Below the pieces are notes generated by a model. That model was not told the DNA's origin. It searched no databases and saw nothing but the letters and a program-made list of their open reading frames with translations. Shown here piece after piece: positions 12,527 to 39,022 of a DNA stretch of 39,022 nucleotides. The DNA is from a virus: IMG/VR virus record IMGVR_UViG_3300024520_000205, positions 1 to 39,022 of that record. One strand, given 5' to 3'. Within the stretch, counting starts at the first letter, position 1. Every line of letters begins with the position of its first letter. A program made the position numbers and the translations under genes.

Positions 12527-13026
12527 TGGCTACTTTCAGAATCCCAATAATGGGGTTTGGTACAAAACCCGATACAAGCGGTGATGTTTTCTTTGAACCG
12601 GAATCTGTAAAATACAGTAATGCTTTAAATGATGTACTACTTGGAGTTTTTAATGATACCGCTACCAGAATTGGACTAGCTTTAAAATTTAAAGTTCCAG
12701 TTAACTATGTCGATAATCCAAAGCTGATTATTACTTGGTCCTCTACTGCCACAAGCGGAGATGTTGAATGGGACTATGACTACACTTCAATTGCAATAGG
12801 CGAAACACTTGACCCTGCTGCTGCGCAAAGAAGTATAAATCAGAACGATACCGCCCCCGGAAGCTCTTTATTTATGTTAGAGGCAGAGTTAGCAATGACA
12901 AACACTGATTTAGCTGCTAAAGATTTGTGCAAAGGCGTTTTGTTCCGTGATGGGACTGATGCTGGAGACACGATGACTGCTTCTGCAATTATTGAAACTA
13001 TTGAATTTGAATATACGGATGCTTAA
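12526..13026 (+). CDS. Probable virion decoration protein (166 aa)
   Basis: Beta-rich sequence (FRIPIMGFGTKPDTSGDVFFEP, LALKFKVPVNYVDNPKLIITWSSTATSGDVEWDYDY) consistent with a jelly-roll head-decoration or fibre-like domain. No named family. Stop overlaps the next start (TAATG). The position among structural genes supports a virion role. Confidence 0.6.
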   Translation: MATFRIPIMGFGTKPDTSGDVFFEPESVKYSNALNDVLLGVFNDTATRIGLALKFKVPVNYVDNPKLIITWSSTATSGDVEWDYDYTSIAIGETLDPAAAQRSINQNDTAPGSSLFMLEAELAMTNTDLAAKDLCKGVLFRDGTDAGDTMTASAIIETIEFEYTDA

Positions 13027-13760
13027 TGGCTAGACAGTTTTCCAAAACGCCCACCCCAGATGACGCAGTCAATTGCGGGGATTTTGCTTCTGTTGATGGG
13101 TTAACGACCTTTACAATGGGGGCATGGGTTAAGCGAGATTCTAGTAACGCATTGGTTAATATATCAAAGTTTTCCTCTGTTAACAGTGATATTTCAATCC
13201 AAGTGTTTAGTGATGGAAACATATACTTTGCGATGCGGAATGGTGCTAACACATCAGCGAATTTTGCTAGAAATGTAACTACATGGGACAGACTTTTAAT
13301 GGTTTTCGATGGGGCTCTTGTTGGGGATGCCAGATTAACGTGTTTTTTAAATGGGGCTTCTCAAGCGTTATCATATACAGGAGCAATGCCAGCCACAACC
13401 CCAACTAATGCAGGGGATTTTATTATAGGAAGCATAAACTCTGGTGGGTCGGATGGTTCAATTGCAGAGGTTAAACTTTGGAGTACAGCATTAAACGCAG
13501 GTCAAGCAAAAGACGATTATTACGGTAGAGGCCCTCACGCAGATTTAGGGTATTGGCCTTTAGGCTATGGCAGTCCAGAGCCGGATTATTCAGGGGCAGG
13601 GAATAATGGCACATTGGTAAGTTCACCTTCAATCGTAGACCATCCCCCAATAGGGACACAGTTTGGGTATGATGAGAGTATAAGCCCTTATGAGGTGGCA
13701 GCAGCAGGTGGTCACGGTGGATTACTTTCTTCACAAAGAAATAGATTAGTAGGAGTATAA
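13026..13760 (+). CDS. LamG/concanavalin-like virion protein (244 aa)
   Basis: Residues ~25-160 match a LamG (concanavalin A-like) jelly roll: FTMGAWVKRDSSN, WDRLLMVFDGA, FIIGSINSGGSDGSIAEVKLWSTALNAGQA, and then the typical GYWPLGYGSPEPDYSGAGNNGTLV. Such domains bind glycans and decorate phage heads or fibres. The C-terminal 40 residues are Gly/Ser rich. Two bases separate it from the next gene. Confidence 0.75.
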   Translation: MARQFSKTPTPDDAVNCGDFASVDGLTTFTMGAWVKRDSSNALVNISKFSSVNSDISIQVFSDGNIYFAMRNGANTSANFARNVTTWDRLLMVFDGALVGDARLTCFLNGASQALSYTGAMPATTPTNAGDFIIGSINSGGSDGSIAEVKLWSTALNAGQAKDDYYGRGPHADLGYWPLGYGSPEPDYSGAGNNGTLVSSPSIVDHPPIGTQFGYDESISPYEVAAAGGHGGLLSSQRNRLVGV

Positions 13761-13761
13761 A

Positions 13762-14502
13762 ATGAGTTATATAGGCGATTTTGCAGAAGATTATGCGACC
13801 CTGAACACAAAGTTTACAACTGTGGGCAGTGATGGGGCCTCAACCGTACTGGCTGGCACTCCGGCTATTTCGGTATACAAGGCAAACGGTACCACTCAGA
13901 GTACAGCCGGGATAACTTTATCAGTAGATTTTGATTCTGTAGTGGGGTTGAATAATGTGTTGATTGACCTTTCAGCAGATGCTTTTTACGCTGTTGGCAA
14001 TGATTACCAGATTGTAATTACTACTGGAACAGTGGGAGGCACAAGCGTTGTGGGTTATGTAGTAGGCGAATTTAGTATTGAAAACCGCTTTATGAGAGGA
14101 ACTGATTCAGCAGCCACAGCTTCAGCATTAACCACCCATGACGGCAAACTGGATACCGCTCAGCTCGATTTAGATACCTTAACGGGAGCAGACGGTGCCA
14201 CACTGGCAACCACTCAAGGGAATTACGCCCCTAATGTAGTAGTACCGGATGCAGCAGGAGTAGCCCCAACAGCAGCGGAAATCTTCACGGCGGTATTAAC
14301 AACCCAATTATCGGAAGCCTATTCAACGAAAGGATCGGCCCCCACCGCTGCTCAATTTATGTTTGAGGTTCTGGGTTTATTGAGAGAAAGAAGCGTAACA
14401 GGCACTACTGAAACAATTAATGGTATTGACGGCGCAACGGCCAAAATGACAAATACACTTGGAGATGCCACCAGTCCAACCTCAGTAACTAGAGCTACAT
14501 GA
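13762..14502 (+). CDS. Beta-rich virion structural protein (246 aa)
   Basis: The N-terminal ~110 residues (MSYIGDFAEDYATLNTKFTT, IDLSADAFYAVGNDYQIVI, EFSIENRF) follow a pattern seen in many phage structural proteins that begin SFxGDFAED and end their first domain with FSIENR. The second half is Ala/Thr-rich helix. Likely a head-decoration or fibre-base protein; exact role unknown. RBS GGAG at 13752-13755. Confidence 0.7.
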   Translation: MSYIGDFAEDYATLNTKFTTVGSDGASTVLAGTPAISVYKANGTTQSTAGITLSVDFDSVVGLNNVLIDLSADAFYAVGNDYQIVITTGTVGGTSVVGYVVGEFSIENRFMRGTDSAATASALTTHDGKLDTAQLDLDTLTGADGATLATTQGNYAPNVVVPDAAGVAPTAAEIFTAVLTTQLSEAYSTKGSAPTAAQFMFEVLGLLRERSVTGTTETINGIDGATAKMTNTLGDATSPTSVTRAT

Positions 14503-31956: not shown

Positions 31957-32328
31957 TTATTTGTTTCTACGCAACCAATCGTCAGGGCTTTCTAAATAAG
32001 TCTCCCATTCAACGGCTATATATTTAAGTGATTTGTCTATAAGTTCTGAAAATTCTGTTGTATTCATTTTACTTGTAGGCTGGACTATCCAATCCTCTAA
32101 TTCAGGGATGTATTTTAAAGCACATTTGGCTTTTAGAAACTCCTTTGCAAAACTGGCTGAAACTTTCTTTTTCATCCGTTCTTGAAGAATTAAGGCAAAT
32201 GAAGGGGCTAAATATCCATGAAAATACCTGTTTTGTGGGCTTGTCCGTTTATTCTTGAACTTCTCAATTTCATAAAACCCATCAGCGACAGGCTCTATGA
32301 TTTTATTGTTTAGTACCTGGATTTTCAT
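31957..32328 (-). CDS. NinB-like recombination accessory protein (123 aa)
   Basis: KRTSPQNRYFHGYLAP (residues 26-41) and TSKMNTTEFSELIDKSLKYIAVEWETYLESPDD (83-115) match the pattern of NinB-like and related phage proteins adjacent to recombinases. In lambda, NinB (Orf) binds single-stranded DNA/SSB and replaces RecFOR functions. It overlaps the ERF gene by ATGA, which supports a recombination role. Family assignment moderate. Confidence 0.65.
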   Translation of the reverse strand: MKIQVLNNKIIEPVADGFYEIEKFKNKRTSPQNRYFHGYLAPSFALILQERMKKKVSASFAKEFLKAKCALKYIPELEDWIVQPTSKMNTTEFSELIDKSLKYIAVEWETYLESPDDWLRRNK

Positions 32329-33113
32329 TCGCCATGTGCCAGAAAAAGGGTGTCAAGTATCTTTTTGTTTTCTGGTGTATCAAGTAGTTTATTCTGGTTA
32401 AGCTGTGTTTCTAGTGTTTTGACTGTTTCAAGGTCAGCACATCTTGAGGCTATCCCTGACCATTCTTTCTGTAGATCCTCTGGGGATTGATTAGCGTTTA
32501 CTGGTGGGGTTCCGTGGACTCTCATTCTATGGGTCTCAAAAAGCATCTTCCAAGTTTCTATCTTATCACCTCGCTTTCCAGACAACCAACCCCAAGCACC
32601 CTTGGTGTGTTTCTTTTGGAATGCTTTGGCATAATTAGTGTATTCTTCTGGAGTTCTGAGTTCTAGCAATTCACCATTTACAGAAGCCCGAGAGGGTAGT
32701 TTGGGGCCGTTTACAGGGGGTTTCATTGTATCCGCATCTTTGGTGTCATCAATACAGAAAAGACCATTAAGGGCATATTTACGGGCATAGGAGCTTGCTG
32801 TGCCTGTTATCTGACTTTCATCCATTCCTTTTCTGGAAAGCGGTTCCCTGGCAAAGGCTGAGACTGATACATTCCCATCTTGCCCGAAGTTTTTACCATC
32901 CTGATTGTAAAGTTTTGCAGTGGCTTTTATGTAGTAACGGTCTCCAATCAAAACTATTTCATCAGTAATCGTTAATGAACACTCTTGTTCAGCTAATAGC
33001 GGTTTGACAGCGTTTAGAATATCCTCACAGCTACGGTATTTATACTTACCAAAGGCATTGGTCTGGCCTTTCGGCGCCTTTAAGGCGCTTTGTATTAGTT
33101 GTAATTCTTTCAT
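32325..33113 (-). CDS. erf: ERF-family single-strand annealing protein
   Basis: The 262-residue protein has the ERF core: KYKYRSCEDILNAVKPLLAEQECSL (residues 24-48), YYIKATAKLYN, and the diagnostic SQITGTASSYARKYALNGLFCIDDTKDADT (101-130). P22 Erf anneals single strands for genome circularisation and recombination. The C-terminal ~100 residues are a variable domain. It overlaps genes on both sides by ATGA, in one operon with the NinB-like gene. Confidence 0.92.
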   Translation of the reverse strand: MKELQLIQSALKAPKGQTNAFGKYKYRSCEDILNAVKPLLAEQECSLTITDEIVLIGDRYYIKATAKLYNQDGKNFGQDGNVSVSAFAREPLSRKGMDESQITGTASSYARKYALNGLFCIDDTKDADTMKPPVNGPKLPSRASVNGELLELRTPEEYTNYAKAFQKKHTKGAWGWLSGKRGDKIETWKMLFETHRMRVHGTPPVNANQSPEDLQKEWSGIASRCADLETVKTLETQLNQNKLLDTPENKKILDTLFLAHGE

Positions 33114-34616: not shown

Positions 34617-34643
34617 TTGTTCCTCAGTGTTATTATGACTTCA

Positions 34644-34672
34644 ATATAACACCAACTTGGTATACTTGTCAA
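34644..34672 (-). promoter_or_regulatory. Promoter of the leftward operon with palindromic operator
   Basis: Read on the minus strand: TTGACA (34672-34667), 17-base spacer, TTATAT (34649-34644). The palindrome ACCAACTTGGT (34651-34661) fills the spacer and is a probable repressor site. It starts about 26 bases upstream of the gene at 34616 and diverges from the promoter at 34719. Confidence 0.8.
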
Positions 34673-34683
34673 GCTCTATCTTC

Positions 34684-34748
34684 AAATAATTGAAATAAAT
34701 CTTTTTTTTATTTTTCACTTGCATTTATCTATGGAATGGGTTTATATT
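34684..34748 (+). promoter_or_regulatory. Promoter of the large structured RNA, with shared motif
   Basis: TTGCAT (34719-34724) and TTATAT (34742-34747) lie 17 bases apart; initiation is expected at about 34755, just where the first RNA stem begins. Upstream is an AT-rich motif AAATAATTGAAATAAATCT (34684-34702) that matches 3701-3719 in 18 of 19 bases. No start codon with a ribosome site follows for about 570 bases. Confidence 0.7.
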
Positions 34749-34912
34749 AGAATCATCTGATAAACTCAGATTCCCCGGCGGTTCGTCTCACGTACTAAAG
34801 GGGAGTCATTTATCAGTAGAGTGAGTTTGTCAGAATCCACTCGAAATCATAGCAGTAAGCATCCGGTGAAGAGCCTAACGGTATCTCTATGGGAAAGGTG
34901 CAAGTATATTAT

Positions 34913-35033
34913 AGTGGTGTAAATCAACGGGCAGACGGCATTGGGCGAAACGGTTAAAGAGTCTCAAAGTACACGAGATGTTCATTGGAGTAGTTTTGGC
35001 AGTGAGATACAGGTTCGAGTCCTGTCACCGCTT
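34913..35033 (+). ncRNA. tRNA-like element A with oversized loops
   Basis: T-arm ACAGG-TTCGAGT-CCTGT (35009-35025) is canonical, followed by CACCGCT (35026-35032), which pairs 7 of 7 (one G-U) with AGTGGTG at 34913-34919, itself followed by T-A as tRNA positions 8-9. Between them are GTCTC/GAGAT with a 9-nt loop (34961-34979) and CATTG/CAGTG with a 12-nt loop (34983-35004), where D- and anticodon arms should be, plus about 40 extra bases after position 9. No CCA is encoded. It is not an ordinary tRNA; it may contain an insertion or be a tRNA-derived domain. Confidence 0.5.
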
Positions 35034-35052
35034 ATATTTTATGGTCTGGTTA

Positions 35053-35150
35053 AGCTGATGGTTTAGCTCCTTTTAATCGAGGGTAATTGTAGTATCGACT
35101 GCTTAAACAACAGTTTTACACTCAAGGGTTCGATTCCCTGCCATTCCCCA
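35053..35150 (+). ncRNA. tRNA-like element B ending in CCA
   Basis: T-arm AAGGG-TTCGATT-CCCTG (35124-35140; outermost A-G mismatch) is followed by CCATTCC and CCA. Upstream are arms AGCT/AGCT with a GG-containing 8-nt loop (35053-35068), GGTA/TATC (35082-35096), and GACTG/CAGTT with the 9-nt loop CTTAAACAA (35097-35115). I find no good 5' acceptor strand nearby. Either a degraded tRNA or a structural domain of the large RNA. Confidence 0.42.
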
Positions 35151-35278
35151 ATAATATATATGGGCCTGCCACAGGTTCCCGGATACCAGGATTCGGGAGA
35201 GGTGGTTAACAAGTACAGCTAAACGACTCAGCGGAGTACGGTTATTTCTCCCAGTGTTAAGTCTTTTCAAGATTTGGC

Positions 35279-35318
35279 ACTGGGAGAACTGCGTTTGCAC
35301 ACAATCTAACAGAGTAGA
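35279..35318 (+). repeat. 40-base direct repeat, copy 1
   Basis: Matches 35912-35951 at 33 of 40 positions; ACTGGGAGA, ACACAATCTA and CAGAGTAGA are invariant. It lies just before the start of the nuclease gene at 35325 and contains the 3' strand of the 11-bp hairpin 35246-35288. Confidence 0.75.
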
Positions 35319-35324
35319 GGAATT

Positions 35325-35912
35325 ATGGTTATATACAATAAAGAATTATCAAAAAAACATAAAGCGGTTAAAGACAGAATAAGAGTAAAGAACAAGGATT
35401 CAATCTATATACCCTACCCTACAGAACATTCTGAGACTGAGGTGGTACATTATATATTAAATGAATTGCACGAATTAGAAATAGATGCTCGCGCAGAAGT
35501 AAGCTCAAAGGATGGTACAAGTAGATTTGATATTGTGATATTTAAGAATAAAGTTGCTCAAAGAATAATAGAAGTCAAAAAAAGGAATGGCACTCTTACA
35601 GAAACACAGCGTAAAAAATATGAAAAATACCAGATACCAGTAGACCATGTAAGAGGTGTGAAAGGGGCCGACAAGTACCTTAAAACAGCCTTTGAAGTGA
35701 TTTTATCACAACCTATTGAACTAGAGAAGAGACCAAGCAGAAGAAAAATCACAGAAGAATTTCAACCTTGTAGAAAATGTGAAACCCCAGTAATTAGAAT
35801 TTTCCCACAGAGAACCGAGAAACCGGGCCAAAAATACAGATTCCAGTCTTATTTAAAATGCCCATCTTGTGAAACCATGTACATGAATGAAAAAGATAAA
35901 ATTTACCTATGA
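35325..35912 (+). CDS. PD-(D/E)xK nuclease-like protein with zinc ribbon (195 aa)
   Basis: An HSDR_N/PD-(D/E)xK-like core: E37 region (HSETEVVHYILNELHEL), SRFDIVIF with D69, and RIIEVKK with E83 and K85. The C-terminal 50 residues are a four-Cys ribbon (C149, C152, C179, C182) that is homologous to the whole gene at 36335 (shared CRKC, KGQKY/PGQKY, CxxCxTMYM). The gene is flanked by the 40-base repeats at 35279 and 35912. Possibly a phage nuclease or homing-type endonuclease; not proven. Confidence 0.72.
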   Translation: MVIYNKELSKKHKAVKDRIRVKNKDSIYIPYPTEHSETEVVHYILNELHELEIDARAEVSSKDGTSRFDIVIFKNKVAQRIIEVKKRNGTLTETQRKKYEKYQIPVDHVRGVKGADKYLKTAFEVILSQPIELEKRPSRRKITEEFQPCRKCETPVIRIFPQRTEKPGQKYRFQSYLKCPSCETMYMNEKDKIYL

Positions 35913-35951
35913 CTGGGAGAGGTACGATCACACACAATCTAGCAGAGTAGA
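35912..35951 (+). repeat. 40-base direct repeat, copy 2
   Basis: Second copy of the 35279-35318 element (33 of 40 identical). It begins at the stop codon of the nuclease-like gene and lies about 33 bases before the next ATG at 35985. The pair may be a conserved leader or the trace of a duplication or insertion. Confidence 0.75.
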
Positions 35952-37612: not shown

Positions 37613-37987
37613 ATGAATTTCCTACAAACAGAGATAAAAATTGATAAAAACAGAATGCGGTACGGCATTAAGTACAACGATAACCAGCTGAATGAAAATT
37701 TAGCAATTGCTTCTGGTGCAATGGTAATACATCTCGTTAGAGAACGTGGGTTCGAATCCCTCTCTGCCTGTCATGGACAGATAGCCAAGTGGATTAAGGC
37801 GTGTATTGACAACAATCTAAAGGCTCAAGTTTCAAGGCTTCAGTACGCAAGTCTCAAACTCATAAAGCCCGCAAGCATCACAGTATCAAGGCTAATCTTG
37901 GAGATTCCGAGAACGTCCTTAGACAAGTTAGTTTTTCTGTTATCATTCAAATCTTCTAAGGCTTCCTGTTTGGGAGGATTTATTTAA
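37613..37987 (+). CDS. Doubtful frame overlapping the permuted tRNA
   Basis: A 124-codon frame starts right after the TAA of the previous gene (TAAATG). Its first ~35 codons (MNFLQTEIKIDKNRMRYGIKYNDNQLNENL...) could be coding, but from about codon 38 it runs through the tRNA-like element and has an unlikely composition. There is no convincing ribosome site. I think most of the stretch 37640-37990 is RNA. Near its end CTTCC/GGGAG (37959-37978) before ATTTATTT may be a terminator. Confidence 0.25.
   Translation: MNFLQTEIKIDKNRMRYGIKYNDNQLNENLAIASGAMVIHLVRERGFESLSACHGQIAKWIKACIDNNLKAQVSRLQYASLKLIKPASITVSRLILEIPRTSLDKLVFLLSFKSSKASCLGGFI
37727..37810 (+). tRNA. Candidate circularly permuted class II tRNA
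   Basis: Order along the DNA: anticodon-stem 3' strand ATACA (37727-37731); variable arm TCTC-GTTA-GAGA (37732-37743); T-arm GTGGG-TTCGAAT-CCCTC (37746-37762, one T-T mismatch); 3' acceptor TCTGCCT (37763-37769); five bases GTCAT; 5' acceptor GGACAGA (37775-37781); T8-A9; D-arm GCC-AAGTGGATTAA-GGC (37784-37800); G26; anticodon-stem 5' strand TGTAT (37802-37806). Acceptor strands pair 6 of 7 (A-C mismatch), the anticodon stem 5 of 5. Every element has tRNA spacing, but 3' half precedes 5' half. The anticodon cannot be assigned, because the loop is split. Confidence 0.6.
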
Positions 37988-37999
37988 AAAAAGGAAAAT

Positions 38000-38697: not shown

Positions 38698-38813
38698 TGG
38701 AATTGTGGAGGAAGTGTCATGGAGTGGCCTCTGGTGAGGGTGTACACATAAAAATAGCGAGTTCGATTCTCGCCCACTTCCTACCACAAGCTTTATTTAA
38801 CCAAGGGGAATGA
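38697..38813 (+). CDS. Possible 38-aa peptide overlapping tRNA-like element
   Basis: ATG overlaps the previous TGA (ATGATGG) and runs 38 codons to TGA 38811, ending NQGE like its neighbours. It covers the tRNA-like element at 38710-38782, so either the frame or the RNA is probably not functional, or both are used. Confidence 0.35.
   Translation: MELWRKCHGVASGEGVHIKIASSILAHFLPQALFNQGE
38710..38782 (+). tRNA. tRNA-like element C, poor anticodon stem
   Basis: Acceptor GGAAGTG (38710-38716) pairs 7 of 7 with CACTTCC (38775-38781); T-arm GCGAG-TTCGATT-CTCGC (38757-38773) is perfect, with one extra C at 38774. Total length is about 73, right for class I. The best D-arm has A14, G15 and G18-G19 in an 8-nt loop with a 3-bp stem using two wobbles. 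In the best register the anticodon loop reads GTGTACA, anticodon GTA (Tyr) after U33, but its stem pairs only 3 of 5. May be degenerate or unusual. Confidence 0.5.
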
Positions 38814-38815
38814 CA

Positions 38816-38881
38816 ATGGAGCATGGAATTGTAAGGTGTGAGAACTGTAAAGCCAACAAGCAGGAGAGTAAAAAGCAATGA
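38816..38881 (+). CDS. Possible 21-aa peptide (RCENCKANK)
   Basis: AAGGGGAATGACA precedes ATG 38816; the peptide MEHGIVRCENCKANKQESKKQ has one CxxC pair and ends in TGA overlapping the ATG at 38878. Its 3' end is repeated at window positions 1-34, so it is the gene before 31-246 in the circular genome. Confidence 0.42.
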   Translation: MEHGIVRCENCKANKQESKKQ

Positions 38882-39022
38882 ACGACGAACTTTTATTGGA
38901 AATTGAAAGCCAGAAGCATAAAATGTTTGCAGAAGGCACAAAAGATACTAAGCCAACCCATGTTGAAATAGCAGACGCAATAAACAAAAGAGGCTTTCTC
39001 GTTTATAATCTTGAAGTTTTTC
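38848..39022. repeat. Right copy of the 175-bp terminal direct repeat
   Basis: Repeats positions 1-175 with one mismatch at 38975 (A) versus 128 (G). It contains the start of a second, truncated copy of the 71-aa gene, from 38878 to the window end; in that copy codon 33 is Asp instead of Gly. The mismatch argues against simple k-mer overlap and suggests strain variation or a long-overlap assembly. Confidence 0.93.
38878..39022 (+). CDS. Partial second copy of the 71-aa gene
   Basis: The same start as the gene at 31, cut off by the window end after 48 codons. In a circular genome it is the same gene and should not be counted twice. Confidence 0.7.
   Translation, partial: MNDELLLEIESQKHKMFAEGTKDTKPTHVEIADAINKRGFLVYNLEVF

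Follow-up and report, generated by a model that had tools for sequence, protein, structure and literature searches.

What does this phage genome hold in the spacer at 34620–35324, which has a leftward gene block on one side and the rightward ORF 35325 on the other and contains no credible gene? Its only ORF (65 aa, GTG start) lies on the minus strand. The absence of a credible gene agrees with the earlier note, which had seen here a large structured non-coding RNA with T-arms and its own promoter. Structure statistics and a near-threshold Rfam tRNA match uphold the structured RNA, whereas the promoter is not supported (see section The 5′ Domain and the Ends of the RNA). The stretch at 34757–35290 (plus strand) probably encodes a structured non-coding RNA of the phage, ~530 nt long; its transcription, its boundaries, any partner, and its function we infer.

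Genome Setting

The window, i.e., the whole 39,022-base stretch of DNA analyzed, is one IMG/VR virus record. It encodes a P22-like portal, coat protein, and terminase, with a NinB-like gene and an ERF-type recombinase (32325–33113, minus strand; assigned by motif and by similarity to other phages' ERF-like proteins) among its genes. Because the first ~174 bases recur at the end of the record (1–174 and 38849–39022 form a terminal direct repeat, identical apart from one mismatch), the record probably represents a whole genome of about 38.85 kb that was assembled as a circle. No close relatives of the virus were found in the collections searched, and its portal homologs are at most ~31% identical over long stretches.

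A strong candidate for a leftward promoter is located at 34643–34672 on the minus strand (TTGACA-18-TATATT with an extended −10, 11 of 12 matches). To the right of the spacer, ORF 35325–35912 (195 aa) by eye resembles a PD-(D/E)xK nuclease whose C-terminal part is a zinc ribbon, repeated in ORF 36335; neither a family match nor relatives were found for ORF 35325. The repeat D1 lies just upstream of this ORF (copy 1, 35279–35318, plus strand, ACTGGGAGA...CACACAATCTAACAGAGTAGA) and again upstream of ORF 35985 (copy 2, 35912–35951, 40 nt, 83% identical to copy 1). The D1 core has these two matches in the window (0.01 expected) and occurs nowhere else in it.

The 5′ Domain and the Ends of the RNA

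Folding of 34757–35290 gives a minimum free energy (MFE) z of −3.4, and that of the region 34730–35330 a z of −3.1. The 5′ domain (34757–34833, plus strand) consists of P1 (34757–34768/34822–34833; 12 bp, CTGATAAACTCA/TGAGTTTGTCAG) stacked on P2 (34769–34776/34800–34807; 8 bp, GATTCCCC/GGGGAGTC, one G·U pair). The nested stems described previously are present, with P1′ (34757–34764/34809–34816; 8 bp, CTGATAAA/TTTATCAG) around P2; P1′ is an alternative to the stabler P1, which is favored by 7.8 kcal/mol (−31.7 vs. −23.9 kcal/mol). The 5′ element 34757–34838 has a z of −5.8, and none of 500 shuffles equals its stability. The terminal hairpin lies at 35246–35288 (plus strand; z −8.3), and its length had been understated as 11 bp: it has 20 bp, including G·U pairs that form only when the plus strand is read.

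The weak sigma70-like promoter candidate at 34719–34749 (plus strand; TTGCAT-N17/18-TATATT, 8/12 consensus) is of the quality expected by chance (~0.9 sites scoring 8/12 per 60 bp), and it is absent from the list of the consensus scan. No terminator was found after the hairpin, so the RNA continues into ORF 35325 unless it is processed.

The tRNA-like Modules

Both tRNA-type T-arms that had been reported (35009–35025 and ~35124–35140) exist, but not as loose helices: the first belongs, as its 3′ arm, to a full acceptor/T-arm fold that has no anticodon (TL1), and a closing helix carries TL1 and the second module, TL2, together on its tip. TL1 (34913–35033, plus strand) is a full-length match to the Rfam tRNA model at 27.7 bits, below the RF00005 cut-off of 29 bits (E = 6e-4 for 4227 Rfam families and 291 nt; 2e-5 for this genome). 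The acceptor stem (AGUGGUG/CACCGCU) and the T-arm (35009–35025, ACAGG-TTCGAGT-CCTGT) are perfect, and TL1 thus combines, as in RF00005, a 7-bp acceptor with a 5-bp T-stem and a 7-nt loop of the form TTCRANT. Its D-arm is degenerate, with loss of the D-stem and retention of U8, A9, A14, G18, G19, and A21. The 5-bp anticodon stem (CAUUG/CAGUG) continues into a 52-nt extension, so that TL1 has no anticodon, and a 7-nt anticodon loop with U33 is absent. The unconstrained MFE structure is the tRNA-like fold, with a variable region of 4 nt; the extension is not stabler than shuffles. TL1 is not an ordinary intron-containing tRNA either, as no excision at the canonical site (37/38) yields a loop with U33.

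The weaker TL2 (35043–35147, plus strand) matches Rfam tRNA-Sec at 18.8 bits (genome-wide E = 0.008). It has the T-arm AAGGG-TTCGATT-CCCTG (AGGG-UUCGAUU-CCCU) at ~35124–35140, a D-arm-like AGCUGA-UGGU-UUAGCU, and an imperfect acceptor, GGUCUGG/CCAUUCC. A perfect 7-mer pairing of GGAATGG at 34733 with CCATTCC at 35141–35147 lacks D-arm features after it and is probably due to chance.

Two further elements lie outside the RNA. TL3 (37686–37770, plus strand; Rfam tRNA, 18.8 bits) has a T-arm and the arm UCUC-GUUA-GAGA without a 5′ acceptor strand, and its stretch 37715–37759 is 80% like the tRNA-Asn genes of phages. It belongs to a probable second structured RNA at 37613–37997 (plus strand; 385 nt, z −2.1, long-range closing helices), which overlaps a doubtful 124-aa ORF; 37613–37987 may be coding. 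TL4 (38703–38789, plus strand; Rfam tRNA-Sec at 38709–38785, 23.7 bits, genome-wide E = 4e-4) has the acceptor AGGAAGUG/CACUUCCU followed by A-CCA, the T-arm GCGAG-UUCGAUU-CUCGC, and an irregular D/anticodon region. All four elements are on the plus strand within 4 kb of one genome, and none is able to decode. ARAGORN calls none of them, its default and intron options having given nothing credible. The motif GGTTCRANNCC occurs three times in the window (0.47 expected). That TL1–TL4 are relics of attP sites is unlikely, as an integrase match is absent among the larger proteins scanned.

The Four-Way Junction and Helix B

Base-pair probabilities from partition-function folding place a four-way-junction scaffold at 34850–35221 (plus strand), made up of a closing helix (34850–34857/35214–35221), hairpin A (34862–34894), helix B (34896–34912/35151–35167; 15 pairs over 17 positions, p 0.94), and hairpin C (35168–35206). 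Helix B encloses TL1 and TL2: its 5′ strand stops flush at the start of TL1, and its 3′ strand begins three bases past TL2. Its energy is −15.3 kcal/mol, compared with −6.8 ± 2.3 kcal/mol for shuffled sequence, and one of 500 shuffles is as stable. The flanks of the junction, taken without the modules (34838–34912 plus 35148–35245), have a z of −3.9, whereas the domain 34850–35221 folded whole has no excess stability over shuffles (z +0.2). Stable flanks in an ordinary whole form the pattern expected for a scaffold with an insert, a pattern that also limits what can be claimed for the inserts.

Since no terminator separates the RNA from ORF 35325, the region could be a cis-acting leader of the rightward operon, which would provide sites for processing by RNase III, RNase P, or RNase Z, or for control of the transcript ("tRNA punctuation"), and which implies no independent trans-acting RNA. 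RNase III could plausibly cleave the 20-bp hairpin, D1 precedes two ORFs, and the other tRNA-like elements are likewise at gene boundaries of the rightward transcription unit. We nevertheless consider such a leader improbable, because a 370-nt junction scaffold around two modules exceeds the needs of punctuation and because P1 and the junction are left unexplained.

Comparison with Known RNA Families

GOLLD, ROOL, tmRNA, and group I introns had been named as models to check against the region, none of which is borne out: with all families of Rfam 15, at gathering and permissive thresholds, no large-RNA family matches 34755–35324. An explicit search with the ROOL model (RF03087; 574 positions, threshold 99.1 bits) gave no match in the region or in the genome.

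ROOL, for which a homo-octameric nanocage is characteristic, is likewise ornate and borne by phages or prophages, is 570–660 nt long, and has a linker that can hold a tRNA-like T-arm. In one phage locus (L099), a ROOL at 12781–13373 (298 bits) is followed by two tRNAs, and the alignment places the T-arm ATAGG-TTCGACT-CCTAT exactly in the variable linker, the part that is inside the RNA cage (PMC12286853). A T-arm in the linker is not a general rule for ROOLs, as it is absent in a second locus (L226). The helices of ROOL differ from those of the 34757–35290 RNA, in which a four-way junction bears two modules. GOLLD is also a large phage RNA near tRNAs, and its linker sometimes contains tRNAs (PMC12286853), whereas the present RNA is shorter and its modules are not decoding tRNAs; a cmscan with every Rfam 15 family gave no match to the GOLLD model, which covers the conserved 3′ region. 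Were the RNA a highly divergent ROOL or GOLLD, this would account for its comparable size, its location in a phage, and its tRNA-like content, for the T-arm in the L099 linker, and for the setting, given that both ROOL and GOLLD adjoin tRNA islands (PMC12286853). This is highly improbable, as the permissive cmscan and the genome search are negative, yet RF03087 scores 298–328 bits elsewhere (L099, L226).

With tRNA (RF00005) and tRNA-Sec (RF01852), the modules have the acceptor, T-arm, and elbow nucleotides in common, whereas they are without an anticodon loop, have lost the D-stem, and fall below the family cut-offs. The tRNA-like end, the degenerate D-arm, and the long helix in place of an anticodon arm are reminiscent of tmRNA; Rfam gave no tmRNA match, ARAGORN was negative, and the tmRNA start motif was not seen. 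YrlA, a bacterial Y RNA (RF02553), is another non-coding RNA with a tRNA-mimicking module; its model has merely 114 positions and does not match 34755–35324.

In its working, the 34757–35290 RNA is probably akin to ROOL and GOLLD without being a member of either, and shared ancestry is not shown here. Searches by DNA, neighboring protein, portal, and ERF, as well as single-sequence covariance models run over 1.1 Mb, found no homolog, and the RNA therefore has no covariation. A blastn search of 50,697 phage records with the L099 or L226 ROOL also found nothing, so the lack of blastn homologs says little. The RNA is at present an orphan.

tRNA-like Elements in Other Phages

A survey for T-arms covered the window and 170 phage loci (~1.45 Mb). 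Strict T-arms number 22, compared with 1.95 in shuffled sequence, and those with a full 7-bp acceptor partner number 13, compared with 0.05 expected, the latter including some canonical tRNAs. ARAGORN does not call TL1, TL4, or the elements in the loci L124, L133, L143, L147, and L177 (at 4478). Because the elements were found via T-arms, their preserved T-half is partly a matter of ascertainment. Several T-arms without acceptors in other phages are beside ORFs of ~330–400 aa, in what look like integrase–att arrangements.

A region of ~1 kb in locus L106 (13552–14530), largely ORF-free, holds a Lacto-phage-1 RNA (RF03004) and a tRNA-Trp, along with an odd element at ~13893–13952 that resembles a tRNA without a D-arm. 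On the minus strand of phage record G047, a 1.2-kb non-coding region (L182, 627–1829), of which the L143 element is a part, has two tRNA-like elements, one with TCACTGG/CCAGTGA enclosing ~150 nt and the other with TTGACGT/ACGTCAA and the T-loop ATCGAGA. The L143 part has no Rfam family match, and the region may encode a further RNA of the large, ornate kind.

A tRNA without an anticodon arm was first seen at L094 (1501–1558). An IMG/VR scan for the pattern of a D-arm (GCTC/GAGC), a linker of 8–13 nt, and a T-arm, with no anticodon arm, found such tRNAs, ~58–63 nt each, in 48 contigs (L227–L274), none of which ARAGORN calls. The class has 28 distinct acceptor stems. Among its 34 distinct sequences, 94.9% of the pair cells hold a standard pair, compared with 71.7% when shuffled and 36–47% with slid partners; the covariation score is 0.61 (shuffled, 0.15; reached by none of 500 shuffles), and both sides change in six of the seven acceptor pairs. 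As the pattern fixed the D-stem and the inner T-stem, the independent evidence consists of the acceptor and outer T-stem pairs. No description of such phage tRNAs was found in the open-access literature searched. The elements of the window are outside this class, from which their D/anticodon regions differ, and are related to it in principle only.

These findings bear on the chief rival explanation, in which TL1–TL4 are decayed phage tRNA genes, i.e., pseudogenes in an unremarkable mRNA leader and in gene spacers. Decay accommodates TL2 and TL3, the acceptors of which are broken, as well as the tRNA-Asn likeness of 37715–37759 and the adjacency of canonical and odd tRNAs in L099, L106, and L177. 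TL1, TL4, and helix B fit it poorly: the acceptor and T-arm stems of TL1 and TL4 are perfect and the decoding half alone is lost, TL1 and TL2 are flush within a significant closing helix, structure is strong outside the tRNA-like parts, and a covarying class of anticodon-arm-less tRNAs exists in phages. On balance, decay is unlikely.

A Proposed Scaffold for tRNA Mimics

RNase P, RNase Z, the CCA-adding enzyme, and EF-Tu recognize the acceptor/T half of tRNA. We propose, at about even probability, that the 34757–35290 RNA is a phage scaffold that displays tRNA mimics lacking a working anticodon to host factors that bind or process tRNA. The 5′ stem domain and the four-way junction would act as the scaffold, and the tip of helix B would display TL1 and TL2 as tandem modules, neither of which offers a usable anticodon; acceptor stem, T-arm, and elbow nucleotides are all retained in TL1 and less completely so in TL2. 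The modules may be taken for tRNA by the four factors named above or by tRNA-targeting defense nucleases, and may attract, or be processed by, such host factors without entering translation. The RNA could serve as a decoy, toward which we lean slightly, or the modules could mediate its maturation from an operon leader.

Mimicry of tRNA without translation is favored because TL1 and TL4 keep the acceptor/T half and lose decoding. The scaffold proposal is further supported by the similarity of TL1 to tRNA and its tRNA-like MFE fold, by a helix B that is flush with the modules and matched in 1 of 500 shuffles, by the scaffold z of −3.9, by the stable 5′ and 3′ hairpins, and by G·U pairs that fit a plus-strand RNA. 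The presence of four tRNA-like elements on one strand within 4 kb, the lack of an integrase match among the large proteins scanned (which makes attP relics unlikely), the excess of acceptor-partnered T-arms (13 vs. 0.05), several of which are not canonical tRNAs, the T-arm of the L099 ROOL linker, and the covarying anticodon-arm-less class in 48 phage contigs point in the same direction. Counting against it are the broken or missing acceptor strands of TL2 and TL3, as decay would give, the ordinary stability of the TL1 extension and of the whole 34850–35221 domain, the lack of a homolog and hence of covariation, and a promoter and terminator that are not above chance.

Phage tRNAs have been proposed or shown to evade tRNA-cutting defenses (PMC10264068, PMC11555353), and, as understood here, such tRNAs still decode. 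More tentatively, and short of an even chance, phages may make an unrecognized set of decoding-dead tRNA mimics that engage host factors reading the acceptor/T half. The free members would be the anticodon-arm-less tRNAs, and the scaffold-mounted members would be the 34757–35290 RNA and some ROOL linkers. The evidence is stronger for the general occurrence in phages of tRNA-like RNAs unable to decode than for the RNA at 34757–35290.

Implications for Phage Biology

Decoding-dead look-alikes of tRNA recur in many unrelated phages, which raises the question of why they are carried and touches on what large ornate RNAs and many tRNAs do for phages. If tRNA-shaped RNAs without decoding ability are retained by phages, their purpose would not be codon supply, and roles as decoys, in processing, or in packaging would come to the fore. 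Such roles are testable with RNase P, the CCA-adding enzyme, EF-Tu, and tRNA-cutting defense systems, and the covarying anticodon-arm-less class provides many natural examples for these tests.
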